Shown here one piece after another: positions 17,937-24,692 of a stretch of 64,000 nucleotides of DNA. The DNA comes from Candidatus Sulfotelmatobacter sp. (GTDB taxonomy: Bacteria > Vulcanimicrobiota > Vulcanimicrobiia > Vulcanimicrobiales > Vulcanimicrobiaceae), in NCBI GenBank assembly GCA_035504415.1, contig DATJRY010000021.1:1-64000 (forward strand). The letters are read 5' to 3'. Every line of letters starts with the position of its first letter. The stretch's first letter is position 1. The translations under genes and the position numbers were made by a program. The notes below the pieces were generated by a model. That model was not told the origin of the DNA and did not search any database. It saw nothing but the letters and a program-made list of their open reading frames with translations.

Positions 17937-18278
17937 ATGATGCCGACCGCGTTGGCGACGCGCCCGGCGGGGGATTGCCCCGTCGAGCGCGCCATCGCCC
18001 AGCTCGCCGACAAGTGGAAGCTGCAGATCCTGCTGGTGCTGGCGGATCAGGAAGTCGTGCGCTTCCGCGAGCTCCAGCGCCAAGTGCACGGCGTCTCGCA
18101 GAAGGTGCTCACCAAGGCGCTGCGCGAGCTCGAGGCCGACGGCCTGGTCGAGCGGACGGTCTATGCCGAAGTGCCGCCGCGCGTCGAATACCGCCCCAGC
18201 CCGCGCTGCGCGCAGCTGCTGCCCATCCTCGCGCAGCTGCAGGACTGGGCGGTCTCCACGTCCGCGGCTGGGGCGTAG
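17937..18278 (+). CDS. HxlR-family transcriptional regulator
   Basis: 113-residue winged-helix regulator. The family pattern is clear: CPVERAIAQLADKWKLQILL at the N-terminus, RFRELQRQVHGVSQKVLTKA as the recognition region, LRELEADGLVERTVYAEVPP and VEYRPSPRC in the wing, and a C-terminal dimerisation helix. The single Cys (residue 14) is the position used for redox or aldehyde sensing in relatives such as HypR, but that role is not shown here. GGGGGA precedes the paired ATG ATG at 17937/17940. It follows yceI in the same direction, 75 bases downstream beyond a hairpin, and may control that unit. Confidence 0.9.
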   Translation: MMPTALATRPAGDCPVERAIAQLADKWKLQILLVLADQEVVRFRELQRQVHGVSQKVLTKALRELEADGLVERTVYAEVPPRVEYRPSPRCAQLLPILAQLQDWAVSTSAAGA

Positions 18279-18312: not shown

Positions 18313-18669
18313 TTAGCTGTCGGCTTTGCGGCGGCGCGCGGTGCGCGTGCCGCCTTCGAGCGCGCGCATGCGGCGGTCCAGCTGATGGACCTGCAGCGTC
18401 AGCTGCTCGACCAGCGTGACCAGCGAGGCGTCGGCGGCGTGCGCGACGTCGTCGGGCGGCCCGTCCTTCCCGGTCGCGAGGAACCAGGGCGTCACGCCGA
18501 ACAGCGCCGCCAGCTTGAGGCCGACGACGAAGCTCGCGCTCTTGGTTTGACCCGACTCCATCTGCCGGATCGCGCCCTCGGTGATACCGACGGCATGCGC
18601 CGTCGCGCTCGGCGTGAGGCGCCGTCGCTCGCGCAGCGAGCGCAAGCGCTCGCCGAAGGTCTCCGACAC
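18313..18669 (-). CDS. XRE-family HTH regulator with C-terminal coiled coil
   Basis: 118-residue DNA-binding protein. Residues 5-65 form a Cro/CI-type helix-turn-helix (FGERLRSLRERRRLTPSATA, VGITEGAIRQMESGQTKSAS). Residues of about 80-105 (LVTLVEQLTLQVHQLDRRMR) look like a coiled-coil dimerisation helix, followed by a basic tail. The start is GTG at 18669; TATACT on the minus strand (18682-18677) stands seven bases upstream and no ribosome site is present, suggesting a leaderless transcript. It is divergent from the Cys-rich small ORF at 18743 and shares a 73-base intergenic region with three AGTAT repeats, so autoregulation and control of that ORF are plausible inferences. Confidence 0.88.
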   Translation of the reverse strand: MSETFGERLRSLRERRRLTPSATAHAVGITEGAIRQMESGQTKSASFVVGLKLAALFGVTPWFLATGKDGPPDDVAHAADASLVTLVEQLTLQVHQLDRRMRALEGGTRTARRRKADS

Positions 18670-18676
18670 GCCGGGA

Positions 18677-18738
18677 AGTATACGAACCGCCTCGCGAAGT
18701 GTGGTATTGCGCTTCCCGGCCTAGTATGCTACGAGTAT
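18677..18738. promoter_or_regulatory. Divergent promoter region with AGTAT repeats
   Basis: Minus-strand TATACT (18682-18677) serves the XRE gene and plus-strand TATGCT (18725-18730) could serve the small ORF at 18743. AGTAT occurs at 18677-18681, 18723-18727 and 18734-18738; the last two are 11 bases apart, about one helical turn, as expected of operator half-sites. Binding by the XRE protein is inference. Confidence 0.45.
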
Positions 18739-18742
18739 CGTG

Positions 18743-18913
18743 ATGCACAGTCCCGCCGGGTGCCCGGAGTGCCTCCACGCCTGGTCGCTCCACACCCCGA
18801 CCGGGTGCACGTTCCGGCTCGCCGGGACCCGCATCACCCCGCCTCGACCGTGCTCTTGCACCCGCAGCGGACACGGGCGAGGTCGGTGGGTCAGCTTCGT
18901 GCACGGCGGCTGA
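18743..18913 (+). CDS. Small Cys-rich protein, 56 residues (unrecognised)
   Basis: Short frame from ATG 18743 (in-frame GTG at 18740) to TGA 18911-18913. The product has five cysteines, in GCPEC (residues 6-10), GC (21-22) and CSC (37-39), with several His and Trp residues, a possible metal site or disulfide-knit peptide. Almost all codon third positions are G or C, matching real genes around it. TATGCT at 18725-18730 lies 12 bases before the ATG (nine before the GTG). I see no export signal. It is divergent from the XRE regulator. A chance frame in GC-rich DNA is the alternative; the coding bias, promoter and Cys spacing together make it credible. Confidence 0.5.
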   Translation: MHSPAGCPECLHAWSLHTPTGCTFRLAGTRITPPRPCSCTRSGHGRGRWVSFVHGG

Positions 18914-18949
18914 CGGAACCCCCGGCACCTCTCGCGTAGCTTGCGGGCC

Positions 18950-21900
18950 ATGCCCGCACGCGCGCGTTCATCGCTCGCCGTTCTCGTCGCGACGCTGACG
19001 CTCGTCGCCACGCGACCGGCCCAGGCCGACCTGCCCGCCCGCCCGGCGACGCCGGCTCCGGCGCCCAGCCCGACGCCGTCGGCCAGCCCGACCCCGGGTC
19101 CCACCCTGCGCTGGCGCAGCCTCGGCCCGGCGGTCGCGGGCGGCCGCGTCGCGACGGTCGCCGGCACCGACGCCGATCCGGCGCTGTTCTTCGCGGGCGC
19201 CGCCGGCGGCGGCGTGTGGAAGTCGACCGACGGCGGCGCGGCGTGGCAACCCGTCTTCGACGCCGCCGGCTCGCAGTCGATCGGCGCGATCGCGATCGCG
19301 CCCGGCGACCCGAAGGACGTTTGGGTCGGCACCGGCGAGGCCTGGCCGCGCAACGACGTGCTGGCCGGCGACGGCATCTATCACTCGAGCGACGGCGGCA
19401 AGACCTGGACGCGGCGCGGTCTCGAGCGCACCTCGCAGATCGCGCGCATCCTGATCGATCCGCGCGACCCGCGGCAGCTCGTCGTCGCCGCGCTGGGCGA
19501 CCCGTTTCGGCCCAACCCCGAGCGCGGCATCTTCCGCAGCACCGACGGCGGCGCGACGTGGACGAAGACGCTGTTCGTCGACGACGGTGTGGGCGCGGCC
19601 GACGTCGCGCGCGATCCGAAGCACCCCGACGTGCTGCTCGCCGCGATGTGGCGGTTCGGCCGCTCGAGCTGGCATTTGACCAGCGGTGGTGCCGGTGACG
19701 GCATCTATCGCTCGACCGACGGCGGCGCGACCTGGGCGCCGCTGCGCGCACAGGGCTTGCCGGACGGCCCGCTGGGACGCATCGCGCTCGCGTACGCGCC
19801 CAGCGACGCGCAACGCGTGTATGCGCTCATCGAGTCCACCCAGGGGCTGCTCTGGCGTTCGGACGACGGCGGCGAAACCTGGAAGAAGACCTCGTCCAAC
19901 ACCTTGATCGACGAGCGCCCCTTCTACTACACGCGGTTGGTCGTCGATCCGCACGACGCCGACCACCTCTTCTCCGTCTCGGTGCTGCTGGCCGAGAGCA
20001 CCAACGGCGGCCTGACCTGGCACCGCACCGGGCGCGGGCTGCACGGCGACCATCACGACCTGTGGATCTCGGCCGACGGCAAGACGATCCTCGAAGGCAA
20101 CGACGGCGGCGTCGGCACCTCGCGCGACGGCGGCGCGAGCTGGCAGTGGCATCGCACGCTCCCGATCGAGCAGTTCTATCACGTCGCGACCGATCGCGGC
20201 GAGCCGTACCGCATCTGCGGTGGACTGCAGGACAACGGCAGCTGGTGCGGCCCCTCGCGCACCGGCGACGCGCGTGGCATCTTGGCGCGCGACTGGAGTC
20301 GCCTCTCGGGCGGCGACGGAACGTGGGTCGTCCCCGATCCACGCGACGCGCGGACGGTCTACGCGGCCGACGGCGGCGGCGACAACGCCGGCGAGATCTT
20401 CCGCACCGACCGCCGCACCAACGAGGTGGTCGACGTCTCGCCGTATTTGCGCGACCAGAACGTCGTCGCGCCCGCGCAGCTGCGCTGGCGCTTCAACTGG
20501 GAGACGCCGATCGCGTTCGATCCGTTCGCGCCGCACGTCGTCTACACCGCGGGCGACGTCGTCTTCCGCAGCGCGGACGCCGGCGCGCACTGGACGCCGA
20601 TCAGCCCCGATCTCACCCAGAACGTCAAGGTCCGCCAAACGCTCTCCGGCGGCCCGATCACCCTCGACGTCACCGGGGCGGAGACCTTCGACACGATCCT
20701 CGCGCTGGCACCCTCGCCACGCGCGCGCGGCGAGCTGTGGGCGAGCACCGACGACGGCGTGGTCCAGCTCACGCGTGACGGCGGCGCGCACTGGACGAAC
20801 GTCACGCCGGCGGGCGTGACGGCCGATGCGCGCATCGACGCGATCGAGGCTTCGCACGCGGCGGCCGGGACGGCCTACGTCGCGATCGACCGTCACTTCG
20901 TGGGTGACCGCACGCCCGACGTCGAGGTGACGACCGACTACGGGCGCACCTGGCGCCGGGTCGTGCACGGCCTCCCGGCCGACATGGTCGACGTCGTGCG
21001 CGAAGATCCGGCCGATCCGGACGTCCTGTACGCCGGGACGGACCACGGTGTGTGGTTGAGCCTGGATCGCGGCGAGCACTGGGAGCCGTTCCCCGCCCCG
21101 CTCCCGCCGGTGGCCGTGCGCGACCTGACGGTGCAGCCGGTGGCCGGCGACCTGATCGCCGCCACCCACGGCCGCGGACTGTACGTGCTCGACGATCTCA
21201 CCCCGATCCGCAGGCTGGCGGCGGCGCGCCGGGCGGGCGTCTCTCTGTTCGCGCCGCGTGCCGCGCACGCGTACGGAAGGGAGACCCCGACGACCGACGT
21301 GGCCGCCGCGGGGACGGATCCGCCCGCGGCGAGCATCTCGTTCTGGCAGCGCAGCCCTGCACGCGGCGAACCGAGCATCGACGTCCTCGACGCGTCGGGA
21401 CGTCTGGTGCGCCGTTTCGCCGGCACGCACGACGAAGACGGCGACGCGGTCCCCAACGTGCCGAACGCCGCCGGCCTGAATCGCGTCGCGTGGGACCTCA
21501 CCGAGACGCCGCCGACGCCGTGGCGCCGCGTCGCCGCGTGGGACCGCGGCCCCGACGGCGGACCGGCCGTGCTGGCCGGCGTCTACACGGTGCGCTTGCA
21601 CCGCGACGGGCGCACCTACACGCAGACGATCCGCGTCACCAGCGACGTGCCCGCCGACCAGGCGCGCCGCGGTCACGCCTTCGTCGCCGCCGTCACCGCC
21701 GAGCTCTCGGCGCTCGACGACGCGCTCAACGCGCTCGACAACGTGCGCCTGCAGACCGCCGGCGCGCTGCCGTCGCTCGACGGCGCGCTGGCCGAGCGCG
21801 CGCGCCGCACGCGCGACGACGCGGCGCGCCTGGAGGCGACGATCACCTCGCACCCGGTCAACGATCAGGACGACGACTTCCTCGAAGACCTCTTGCGCGA

Positions 21901-22168: not shown

Positions 22169-23731
22169 CTAGAGGACCAGGCCGCGCCGCACGCACTCGC
22201 GCAGCAGCGCCTGACGATCGGGCAAGCCGAACGTCATCAGGATGCGCGAGACCGTGTTGCGGATGGTCTGCTTCGAACGGTTGCGCGCGGCCGCGATCGC
22301 GGCGGTCGACATCCCTTCGCACAGCAGCACGAGCACGGCGCGTTCGGTCGGCGAGAGCTCGCTGACGATCGGGTCGGCATCGCCCGGATCGACGGCCGGC
22401 GCGATGGTGCGCAGCGGCGAAGAGGCGGCGACCTTGCGCAAAACGCCGTCGACGTACTCGCGCAGCGAGGTCTGCCCGGTCAGCTCGTGCAGCCGCGTCG
22501 CGGCCACCAGCGCGCGCCGCTCGTAGCCGATGCGGCGATACAGCTCGAAGGCGCGCTGGGCGCGCTCGCGCGCCTGGATGAGGTCGCCGGCCGCGTGCGC
22601 GACGACCGACTCGGCGTCGGCGATCGCGGCTTCGTCGCGCGGATCGTTCATCAGCGAGGACATCGCCGAGGGACCGCGCAGCCGCCGATGACGCTTGAGC
22701 ACCGCGCTGGCGCGCAGCACGTCGCCCGACGCGGCCAGCTCCGTCGCCAAGGCGAGGAACGCGTTGCGCTCGTGACCGCCCACCGACTCGTCGGCGATCG
22801 CATCGGCGGCGACGCGCACCCGGCTGACGAGGTCGGCGTGCGCGTAGCGCTCGCCGGCGGCGCGGAAGATCTCCGCCCGGCGGCACTGCGCCGCCAGGCG
22901 CGTCGCCGGCGTCGGCGCCGCCTCGTCGGCGTGCGCCGTCCAGGCCAACGCGTCGCCGACGCGCCCGCGCGCTTCGTCCATCAGCGACGCGTGATACGCG
23001 ACCAAGTAGCGCGAGTGCGAGAGACCGCTGGCGGACCAATCGAAGCGCGCTACCCGCCGTTCGACCATCGCCCAAGCGTCGGCGTCGAGGCGCTCCGCGG
23101 CCAACGTCGCCAACGCTTCGAGCGCCATCGCTTCCATGAAGCGGTCGTGGTGGCGGCAGCCGTCGAGCGTGACCAGCGCGGCGGTGAACGCCTCGGTCGC
23201 GGCGACGTAGTCGGCGCGGGCGACCGCGACCCAGCCGCGGTACTCGAGCGCGCGCGCGTAGACGATGTCGGCGTCCGGCAAGACCGCGTCGAGCGCGCGG
23301 TCGGCGTCGTCGAGCGCACGTTCCCCGTAGTAGCCCAGTGCGAGGTTGAGCGCGATCTCGGAGCGCACCGTCGGGTGCGCGCGCGCGGCATCGGCTTGCG
23401 CCGTGAGCAACAGATCGATCCCGCGCTGCAGCTCGCCGCGGCGGACGTAGGCCGTGCCCAGCAGCATGCGGGCGGTCAACGAGGTGTCGAGTCCGCCGGC
23501 CGCCGCGACGAAGGTGCGCTCGAGCTCGACGATCGCCTCGTCGGGGCGCCCGATGCGCAGCATCGCGCGAGCGCGCAAGAGCGCGAGTTGCGCCCGATCG
23601 TCGGGCGCGTCGGCGCGAACGCGTCCGCACAGGGCGAGACACTCGGCGAAGTCGCCGGCAAACCAGGCTCGCATCGCGTCGGAGAACGCCACCCGTCCCA
23701 GACGCTCGGATCGAATTCGTTCGGAAAGCAT
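22169..23731 (-). CDS. TPR-containing LuxR-type transcriptional regulator
   Basis: 520-residue protein. Most of it is helical repeats of TPR type (FAGDFAECLALCGRVR, ARAMLRIGRPDEAIVELERT, LLGTAYVRRGELQRGIDLLL and others). The C-terminal 65 residues form a LuxR/FixJ helix-turn-helix: LSPTERAVLVLLCEGMSTAA, ARNRSKQTIRNTVSRILMTF. No ATPase Walker motif is present, so it is smaller than MalT-type regulators. I used ATG 23731; the frame continues 25 codons upstream without conserved features. It lies downstream of argB on the same strand after 133 bases and converges with the BNR gene (6 bases between stops). Target and ligand unknown. Confidence 0.85.
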   Translation of the reverse strand: MLSERIRSERLGRVAFSDAMRAWFAGDFAECLALCGRVRADAPDDRAQLALLRARAMLRIGRPDEAIVELERTFVAAAGGLDTSLTARMLLGTAYVRRGELQRGIDLLLTAQADAARAHPTVRSEIALNLALGYYGERALDDADRALDAVLPDADIVYARALEYRGWVAVARADYVAATEAFTAALVTLDGCRHHDRFMEAMALEALATLAAERLDADAWAMVERRVARFDWSASGLSHSRYLVAYHASLMDEARGRVGDALAWTAHADEAAPTPATRLAAQCRRAEIFRAAGERYAHADLVSRVRVAADAIADESVGGHERNAFLALATELAASGDVLRASAVLKRHRRLRGPSAMSSLMNDPRDEAAIADAESVVAHAAGDLIQARERAQRAFELYRRIGYERRALVAATRLHELTGQTSLREYVDGVLRKVAASSPLRTIAPAVDPGDADPIVSELSPTERAVLVLLCEGMSTAAIAAARNRSKQTIRNTVSRILMTFGLPDRQALLRECVRRGLVL

Positions 23732-23864
23732 CGGTCCCACACCCGGAAAGGCGGAGGAACAGCACACCGACGGCCCCCGCACCGTCGTTACGGCGGAGTT
23801 CGCCACCCTGCTGCGGATTCCGTTCGTCCCAATGGAGTACCGCGATTGTCCATCGGTCGATTCC

Positions 23865-24692
23865 TCACGTCCCGGTCAGTTCGGTCCCTTGGCCCGCGAG
23901 TGCCGCGAGGATCGCGCCCGGTCCGGCGCCGGCCACCACGGCGCGGCGCGCACCGCCGCGCACGGCGCGAATCGCCGCCGCCATCTTGGGAATCATGCCG
24001 TCGCTGAAGGTTCCGTCGACGAGGAAGGCCTCGGCCTGATCGGCCGACAGCCGCGGGATGACGGAGCTCGGATCAGCCAGGTCGCGGCGCACGCCGGCGA
24101 CGTTGGTGATGACGACGTAGGCGTCGGCGGCGAGCGCGCCGGCGATCGCGCCGGCCGCCGTGTCGGCGTTGCAGTTGAGCGCGGCGCCGTCGGTGCGGTC
24201 GAGCGCCAGCGGTGCCACCACCGCCACGAAGCCGGCATCGAGTAGGACCCGGATCGCGCTCGGCTCGACCCGCTCGATCTCGCCGACGTAGCCCAGGTCG
24301 ACGCCGTCGATCGCGCCGGCCCGGCGCGCCACGAGCAGCCCACCGTCCTCGCCGGAGATCCCGACGGTGCGCGCGCCGCGCCGCGCCAGCGCGCGCACGA
24401 GCGCCTTGTTGACCGCGCCGCACAGCACGTACTCCACCACGTCGCGCGCGGCGCGACCCGTCACCCGCAGGCCGGCGACACGCGGCTCGTCGATCGCCTT
24501 CGCGCGCAGCTCGGCGTCGATCTGCGGCCCGCCGCCGTGGACGAGGACGACGCGGTCACCGCGCGCGGCCAGCGCCGCGACCTCGTCGAGCACCGGGTCG
24601 GGCGCGCCTTCGGCCGCCATCGCGTTTCCGCCGTATTTGAGGACGATCAGCACCACGGGACGCTCGGTGATCGGTGTGGTAGGGTCCTGCAT
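23865..24692 (-). CDS. argB: Acetylglutamate kinase
   Basis: Phosphorylates N-acetyl-L-glutamate in the cyclic arginine pathway. The 275-residue product shows the amino-acid kinase fold: LKYGGNAMA (Lys for phosphate), VLVHGGGPQIDAEL, the substrate segment GLRVTGRAA, LNCNADTAAGAIAGALAA, DGTFSDGMIPKMAAA (Lys) and a final glycine-rich end. It has no N-terminal extension of the arginine-inhibited hexameric type. The ATG at 24692-24690 overlaps, on the opposite strand, the ATG of the dehalogenase at 24691-24693. GTG codons at 24656 and 24653 are the other possible starts. It is separated from the main arg operon by about 2.6 kb, and I see no ARG-box-like palindrome next to it. Confidence 0.94.
   Translation of the reverse strand: MQDPTTPITERPVVLIVLKYGGNAMAAEGAPDPVLDEVAALAARGDRVVLVHGGGPQIDAELRAKAIDEPRVAGLRVTGRAARDVVEYVLCGAVNKALVRALARRGARTVGISGEDGGLLVARRAGAIDGVDLGYVGEIERVEPSAIRVLLDAGFVAVVAPLALDRTDGAALNCNADTAAGAIAGALAADAYVVITNVAGVRRDLADPSSVIPRLSADQAEAFLVDGTFSDGMIPKMAAAIRAVRGGARRAVVAGAGPGAILAALAGQGTELTGT

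Follow-up and report, generated by a model that had tools for sequence, protein, structure and literature searches.

Genes and features at the locus

The window, a stretch of 64,000 nucleotides, is part of a 4.17-Mb Candidatus Eremiobacterota (WPS-2) MAG (G000) whose relatives, as judged by the XRE gene described below, are MAGs named Candidatus Eremiobacterota or WPS-2, many of them from palsa. We refer to the G genomes assigned to the same genus as the window genome as congeners (11 including the window's own). A previous sequence-only reading had pointed to an overlooked 56-residue Cys frame, here referred to as ORF56, that faces an XRE regulator. The locus contains the following features:

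18313..18669, minus strand: XRE-family transcriptional regulator, 118 aa, GTG start (PF13560, 39.7 bits)
18677..18682, minus strand: XRE -10 box TATACT, 7 nt before the GTG, conserved with single-base changes (putative promoter)
18702..18711, unstranded: TGGTATTGCG, invariant, proposed XRE operator and/or overlapping -35 region (putative operator)
18725..18730, plus strand: ORF56 -10 box TATGCT, 12 nt before the ATG, near-leaderless (putative promoter)
18734..18738, plus strand: third AGTAT copy, present in the window genome only
18743..18913, plus strand: ORF56, small Cys/His protein, 56 aa, ATG start, with candidate metal ligands C7, C10, H12, H17, C22, C37, and C39

ORF56 (MHSPAGCPECLHAWSLHTPTGCTFRLAGTRITPPRPCSCTRSGHGRGRWVSFVHGG; alternative GTG at 18740) contains five Cys, in CPEC, GC, and CSC groups, plus His12 and His17, and its GC content at codon positions 1, 2, and 3 is 61, 73, and 88% respectively. 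ORFs of 40 aa or longer that overlap the surrounding 8 kb number 51; at such base composition the length of ORF56 alone is therefore no evidence of a gene, and comparison has to decide.

The regulator is placed in the XRE family by two Pfam models (HTH_31, PF13560, with a cut-off of 27 bits, and PF01381, 28.4 bits with a cut-off of 23). Orthologues sharing 60–70% identity are present in 9 of the 11 congeneric genomes including the window's (8 of the 10 others), and the HTH segment TEGAIRQMESGQTK is invariant in their alignment. G001, G002, G007, and G008 share the order of XRE, ORF slot, and downstream VPS10-like gene, which is followed by a LuxR gene in G001 and G008. Other XRE paralogues (L127-L131) have neither a LuxR gene nor a peptide ORF adjoining. 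An HxlR-type regulator (17937-18278, plus strand) is convergent with XRE, and its best NCBIfam similarity is to the redox regulators RrpA/RrpB, below their cut-offs.

Coding constraint on ORF56

Among the nine orthologous XRE loci, the only intact syntenic homologue of ORF56 besides the window copy is found in G002 (MQFSVCPECRHLESLHDDETGCVHWEPGTRVTRPRMCGCKHSLH). The synteny with XRE, proposed as a check in the sequence-only reading, is seen in this homologue and in the gene order common to the four genomes named above. Aligned as proteins, which somewhat favors identity, the two share 21 of 42 residues (null mean, 12.6). Their DNA is 57% identical over these 42 codons, and 11 of the 21 identical residues are encoded by synonymous codons that differ between the two. 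None of the seven candidate ligands is lost. When the same substitutions were scattered randomly, 21 identities were reached in 7 of 50,000 trials, no trial of the 50,000 kept every shared Cys/His, and a stop was created in 69%. By the NG86 method, dN is 0.44 and dS is 1.9 (saturated), giving a dN/dS of about 0.23. The expected pattern of conserved Cys with synonymous changes elsewhere is therefore what the comparison with G002 reveals. Homology, synteny, and codon-level constraint together raise ORF56 above chance, and from these comparisons we conclude that it is a real gene with a coding frame under codon constraint, as the sequence-only reading had proposed.

An undescribed Cys/His microprotein family

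A search of 60 relatives recovered short frames with the ligand pattern of ORF56. An alignment of 19 frames (A1) has six invariant Cys/His columns in the pattern CxxCxH-x4-H-x4-GC-x9-PxxCxC, and ORF56 matches all six (C10, H12, H17, C22, C37, and C39); some members of this family lack the first Cys. The family profile, which itself includes ORF56, scores ORF56 at 63.4 bits (E 8e-17). Its matches cover every one of the 11 congeners and, more patchily, other genera of the taxonomic family, and a single genome often has several. Most of the genus shares orthologues of one subfamily, PPxCxDCGHRASLHHxDGCRALLLGRG, whose dN/dS is about 0.09–0.43. Another strongly conserved Cys/His microprotein (G000:C4:41109-41258, L048; PPLCEDCGHRASLHHLDGCRALLLGRG...) has orthologues in most congeners at a dN/dS of about 0.2, and would suit biochemical work better than ORF56.

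No model in Pfam, NCBIfam, PHROGs, or PADLOC exceeds its threshold for ORF56, and the CxxCxH-H-GC-PxxCxC family is undescribed and missing from Pfam, NCBIfam, and PHROGs. Among curated models, RGCVC (NCBIfam NF038206) alone overlaps ORF56, at residues 4-40 with 16.8 bits against a cut-off of 35 (E 0.0048). The RGCVC family has a similar small C..C..H..H..C.C spacing; however, the RGCVC motif is absent from ORF56, which has RPCSC in its place, and with the score below the cut-off we rejected membership. Five other family members tested against NF038206 gave no match. No relative of the ORF56 family was found among solved structures, and none of ORF56 among phages, plasmids, and viral contigs; Labrenzia plasmid matches (39.5%, E 0.02) lie inside an alkaline phosphatase family gene and were judged to be due to chance. 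An AlphaFold model of ORF56 made without an alignment has low confidence (pLDDT 50) and gives no fold.

The ORF56 product had been suggested to be metal- or redox-binding. The Cys/His ligand set conserved across the family agrees with this, although metal and redox roles are indistinguishable by sequence; the CxxCxH together with the H/C/CxC ligands would favor zinc.

The divergent promoter region

The 60-bp intergenic region is conserved along with XRE. Common to the orthologous loci are an AGTATAC box, TGGTATTGCG, and RTRTGCTAC, in this order, and RTRWGCTAC is kept in them with its spacing to the GATGC start region unchanged in most. The TATACT box is only 7 nt from the GTG of XRE in the window and 7–8 nt from the start across orthologues, which agrees with the earlier designation of a leaderless-type promoter. 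Similarly, the TATGCT element assigned to ORF56 is retained as a putative -10 box, as the plus-strand motif is conserved at the orthologous loci, some congeners having TGTGCT instead.

The compound site TGGTATTGCG-N12-RTRWGCTAC (also written GTAWGCTAC) occurs once per genome, always beside the XRE gene and with a constant span of 31 nt, in 10 of 41 genomes: the nine congeners with an XRE orthologue at this locus, and G020, a member of another genus that carries it beside its own XRE. It is absent from the other 31 of the 41 genomes, and a reversed-pattern control gave 0. TGGTATTGCG is placed where the -35 regions of XRE and ORF56 would overlap, and is the presumed XRE operator.

The three AGTAT repeats described between the two genes are all present, at 18677, 18723, and 18734 (the last two 11 bp apart), and make up 3 of the 11 copies within the 64 kb. 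Two of them form the cores of the opposed -10 boxes, and their positions are conserved. The third, however, is private to the window genome, so that the pair spaced by a helical turn is probably not a regulatory repeat, nor the copy at 18734 a conserved regulatory element.

Repeated loss of ORF56

At 7 of the 9 orthologous loci, the small gene is decayed or deleted, whereas XRE and the promoter persist. The counterpart in G008 has lost one Cys from each pair and ends early, that in G004 contains stops, those in G007 and G009 are disrupted, and that in G001 has lost its CxxCxH half; G003 and G006 have no ORF in this slot. Stops, frameshifts, or lost Cys in relatives had been named as evidence that would count against the frame, and they apply to most relatives with the exception of G002. 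In the XRE tree, the window genome and G009 branch first and G002 is nested among the genomes that lost the gene (with moderate support), which implies at least two independent losses. With intact copies confined to the window genome and G002, ORF56 is not an obligate partner of XRE, and by this distribution we judge it dispensable on the scale of the genus. The proposed compact two-gene control unit therefore holds with respect to a compact, conserved divergent promoter shared with XRE, but not with respect to obligate pairing.

Since the plus-strand promoter stays where ORF56 is lost, it may serve XRE autoregulation alone. A doubtful extension of this idea is that autoregulation is the only role of the intergenic region, and that ORF56 is a relic in the course of being lost, without function in the window genome. 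The independent losses would fit such a relic, as would the promoter kept despite deletion of the ORF in G003, G006, and G020, the last of these from another genus. Against it, all seven ligand codons are intact in the window and the frame has stayed open despite only 57% nucleotide identity to G002, while the decayed copies, by comparison, lost ligands.

XRE proteins often act as antitoxins, and the XRE here is weakly similar to a Y4mF/HipB-type model (24.9 bits against a cut-off of 71.65), which would be in line with a toxin-antitoxin pair. Such a pair is nonetheless very improbable, given that no toxin-antitoxin or defense model in PADLOC or Pfam matches ORF56, that the two genes are divergent rather than co-transcribed, and that XRE survives without ORF56.

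A covarying hairpin RNA in congeners

Seven congeners have a hairpin at or just past the position of the ORF56 3' end. It belongs to a dispersed family with 1–8 copies per genome; a covariance model (R1) has 29 matches in eight congeners and weak ones in three other genera, and none in G000, G005, and G009. The hairpin consists of a 17-bp outer stem, a 6-bp inner stem, and a 9-nt bulge on the 3' side, CUACACCCC, often with a CCACACC apical loop. The copies from which the model was built all have an identical bulge, but CUACACCCC itself was part of how they were found. Both sides have changed in 14 of the 23 pairs, and 95.2% of cells are paired, compared with at most 54% in a slid control and 0 of 500 shuffles. 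The C-rich unpaired motifs are conserved. G-U pairs outnumber A-C oppositions by 89 to 8, which indicates the strand in the sense of ORF56 as the RNA. Rfam has no match at E <= 1 in eight XRE/hairpin loci. These features point to a predicted covarying hairpin RNA family, with the CUACACCCC bulge, that is unreported and outside Rfam.

The hairpin lies directly 3' of same-strand Cys-family ORFs in G002 (at the XRE locus), G003 (two), G004, G006, and G007 (three), and behind decayed ORFs at further loci; at the XRE locus of G003 and G006, promoter and hairpin remain without an ORF. Hairpin loci include L148, L149, L157, L170, L175, L050, and L055 along with about 20 others in congeners. Two other identities were rejected. 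The copies are dispersed and mostly single and have no attC core sites, which argues against an attC site or array element. A T-rich stretch follows many LuxR-linked copies but not the XRE-linked ones; this, together with the conserved bulge, makes termination alone an insufficient explanation.

These observations raise the question of whether the divergent transcript acts chiefly as a regulatory RNA, in a layout like that of agr RNAIII or CcsR, with the Cys ORF as a dispensable passenger that alone is left in the window. Consistent with this, hairpin and promoter persist in genomes with a lost or decayed ORF (G001, G003, G006, G007, and G008), and the strong two-sided covariation, the bias to G-U over A-C in the ORF sense, and the conserved C-rich unpaired motifs also fit such an RNA. 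The window itself speaks against this reading: R1 has no match near 18913 (the best in the window, 17.6 bits, E 0.1, is elsewhere, and G000 has none at E <= 0.01), the region 18840-18960 after ORF56 folds no better than shuffles (z -0.28), and ORF56 still keeps its ligands. We therefore regard it as improbable for this locus.

TPR-LuxR genes and candidate repeat peptides

Among 19 hairpins in G006, G007, and G008, three are at the XRE locus and 13 are within 0.7 kb of a TPR-LuxR gene homologous to window positions 22169-23731. Many of these TPR-LuxR genes have an upstream same-strand ORF of 20–65 residues with a hydrophobic start and repeated units, for example:

L236: repeat ORF, NTVGGGPV x3
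L209: repeat ORF, YDTGGGGPS-type x2
L233: repeat ORF, TDTLSTSGPPG x2
L214: repeat ORF, DGMSGGPAA x2
L213: repeat ORF, GSGGPDH x2

The exported-looking xGGPS-type repeat ORFs at L209, L210, L211, L213, L214, L233, and L236 end about 30–90 nt upstream of the TPR-LuxR gene, and LuxR paralogues number up to 21 in one genome. The arrangement suggests that the repeat ORFs and TPR-LuxR proteins are candidate peptide pheromone precursors and receptors. Several of the promoters divergent from LuxR genes contain palindromes of two types, GGTACGATCGTACC (or GGTACGGCCGTACC) and CCGGGAGAAACCTCCCGG (L188, L189, L190, L191, and L200, and L179, L194, and L203, respectively), which are probable operators of the respective regulators. 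In the window genome itself, an XRE paralogue (L242 1652-3643; G000:C12, about 197,150-199,140) is divergent from two tiny hydrophobic ORFs, which end in LGGSST and LGGSSG and are followed by a LuxR-type gene.

For the window's own TPR-LuxR gene (22169-23865, minus strand), the called start at 23806 adds residues that homologues do not support, and a start at about 23731 is likelier. We rejected this protein as a peptide receptor: directly upstream is an argB-like gene (named from its sequence), and no propeptide. The window copy of ORF56, too, is accompanied by neither a hairpin nor a peptide ORF.

A proposed mechanism and its relation to known systems

On balance, we lean toward XRE and ORF56 as a divergent pair, in which XRE represses both promoters and the ORF56 product is a metal-bound adaptor. 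The XRE protein would bind TGGTATTGCG over both -35 regions and thereby repress its own leaderless mRNA as well as the near-leaderless ORF56 mRNA; release of XRE would then allow the ORF56 product to be made. This product may bind a metal, most likely a single zinc ion, and fold around it via CxxCxH, H/C, and CxC, and may act as a small, dispensable nucleic-acid- or protein-binding adaptor. In siblings, the Cys/His microprotein would act with the hairpin RNA. Because Cys genes in congeners are often 5' in a unit that ends in the hairpin, the window copy is read as the protein half of the module, i.e., a "regulator / microprotein + structured RNA" module whose RNA half may have been lost or may never have been there.

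A broader proposal, which we put forward only tentatively and consider rather unlikely, is that XRE-ORF56 belongs, in reduced form, to an unreported modular signaling system of Eremiobacterota, in which XRE replaces the receptor at the window locus. One side of the full module would comprise an exported multi-repeat peptide (YDTGGGGPS, NTVGGGPV, DGMSGGPA) and a TPR-LuxR receptor, with a divergent palindrome promoter; the other side would comprise a Cys/His microprotein whose mRNA ends in the structured RNA with the C-rich bulge CUACACCCC. This layout resembles staphylococcal agr/RNAIII, with no part known to be homologous.

The divergent pair that we favor resembles autoregulated XRE/Cro-CI-type pairs in its short HTH regulator, overlapping divergent promoters, leaderless-type start, and conserved intergenic site. 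It differs in its partner, a Cys/His microprotein of an undescribed family that is dispensable in the genus.

RRNPP quorum-sensing systems have their setting in Bacillota. They consist of propeptide/receptor pairs, and RRNPP_detector expects receptors of 250–500 aa (PMC10075063). Only the sibling TPR-LuxR loci are similar, with an adjacent propeptide-like repeat ORF that looks exported and a TPR-HTH regulator; unlike RRNPP receptors, these regulators have a LuxR-type C-terminal HTH, are about 520 aa long, and occur in Eremiobacterota. XRE and ORF56 do not form an RRNPP-type pair, as the 118-aa XRE has only HTH matches and no TPR. Nor is ORF56 an RRNPP propeptide, since it starts MHSPAGCPECLHAW and has no hydrophobic stretch. 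The earlier suggestion of a peptide signal with its repressor is likewise not supported for ORF56 itself, which has a metal-knuckle pattern instead of a hydrophobic leader.

In the alphaproteobacterial CIN1 locus, CcaF1 (DUF1127, 71 aa) is co-transcribed with the CcsR RNAs (PMC10253847). As in that locus, a small protein gene is followed by a conserved putative small RNA in the congeners, though not in the window copy. The congener module differs from CcaF1-CcsR in having no DUF1127 match, a Cys/His protein, a single hairpin that is not in Rfam, and a regulator next door.

Significance

The window feature is itself modest, and most of its interest comes from its attachments in relatives. With ORF56, Eremiobacterota, a phylum very few of whose members are in culture, gains an unannotated microprotein family; this real small gene was picked out by reading raw sequence. 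Its follow-up led to a putative RNA family with covariation that Rfam does not contain, and also to a candidate peptide-signaling module which, if confirmed, would extend receptor-adjacent peptide signaling well beyond Bacillota.
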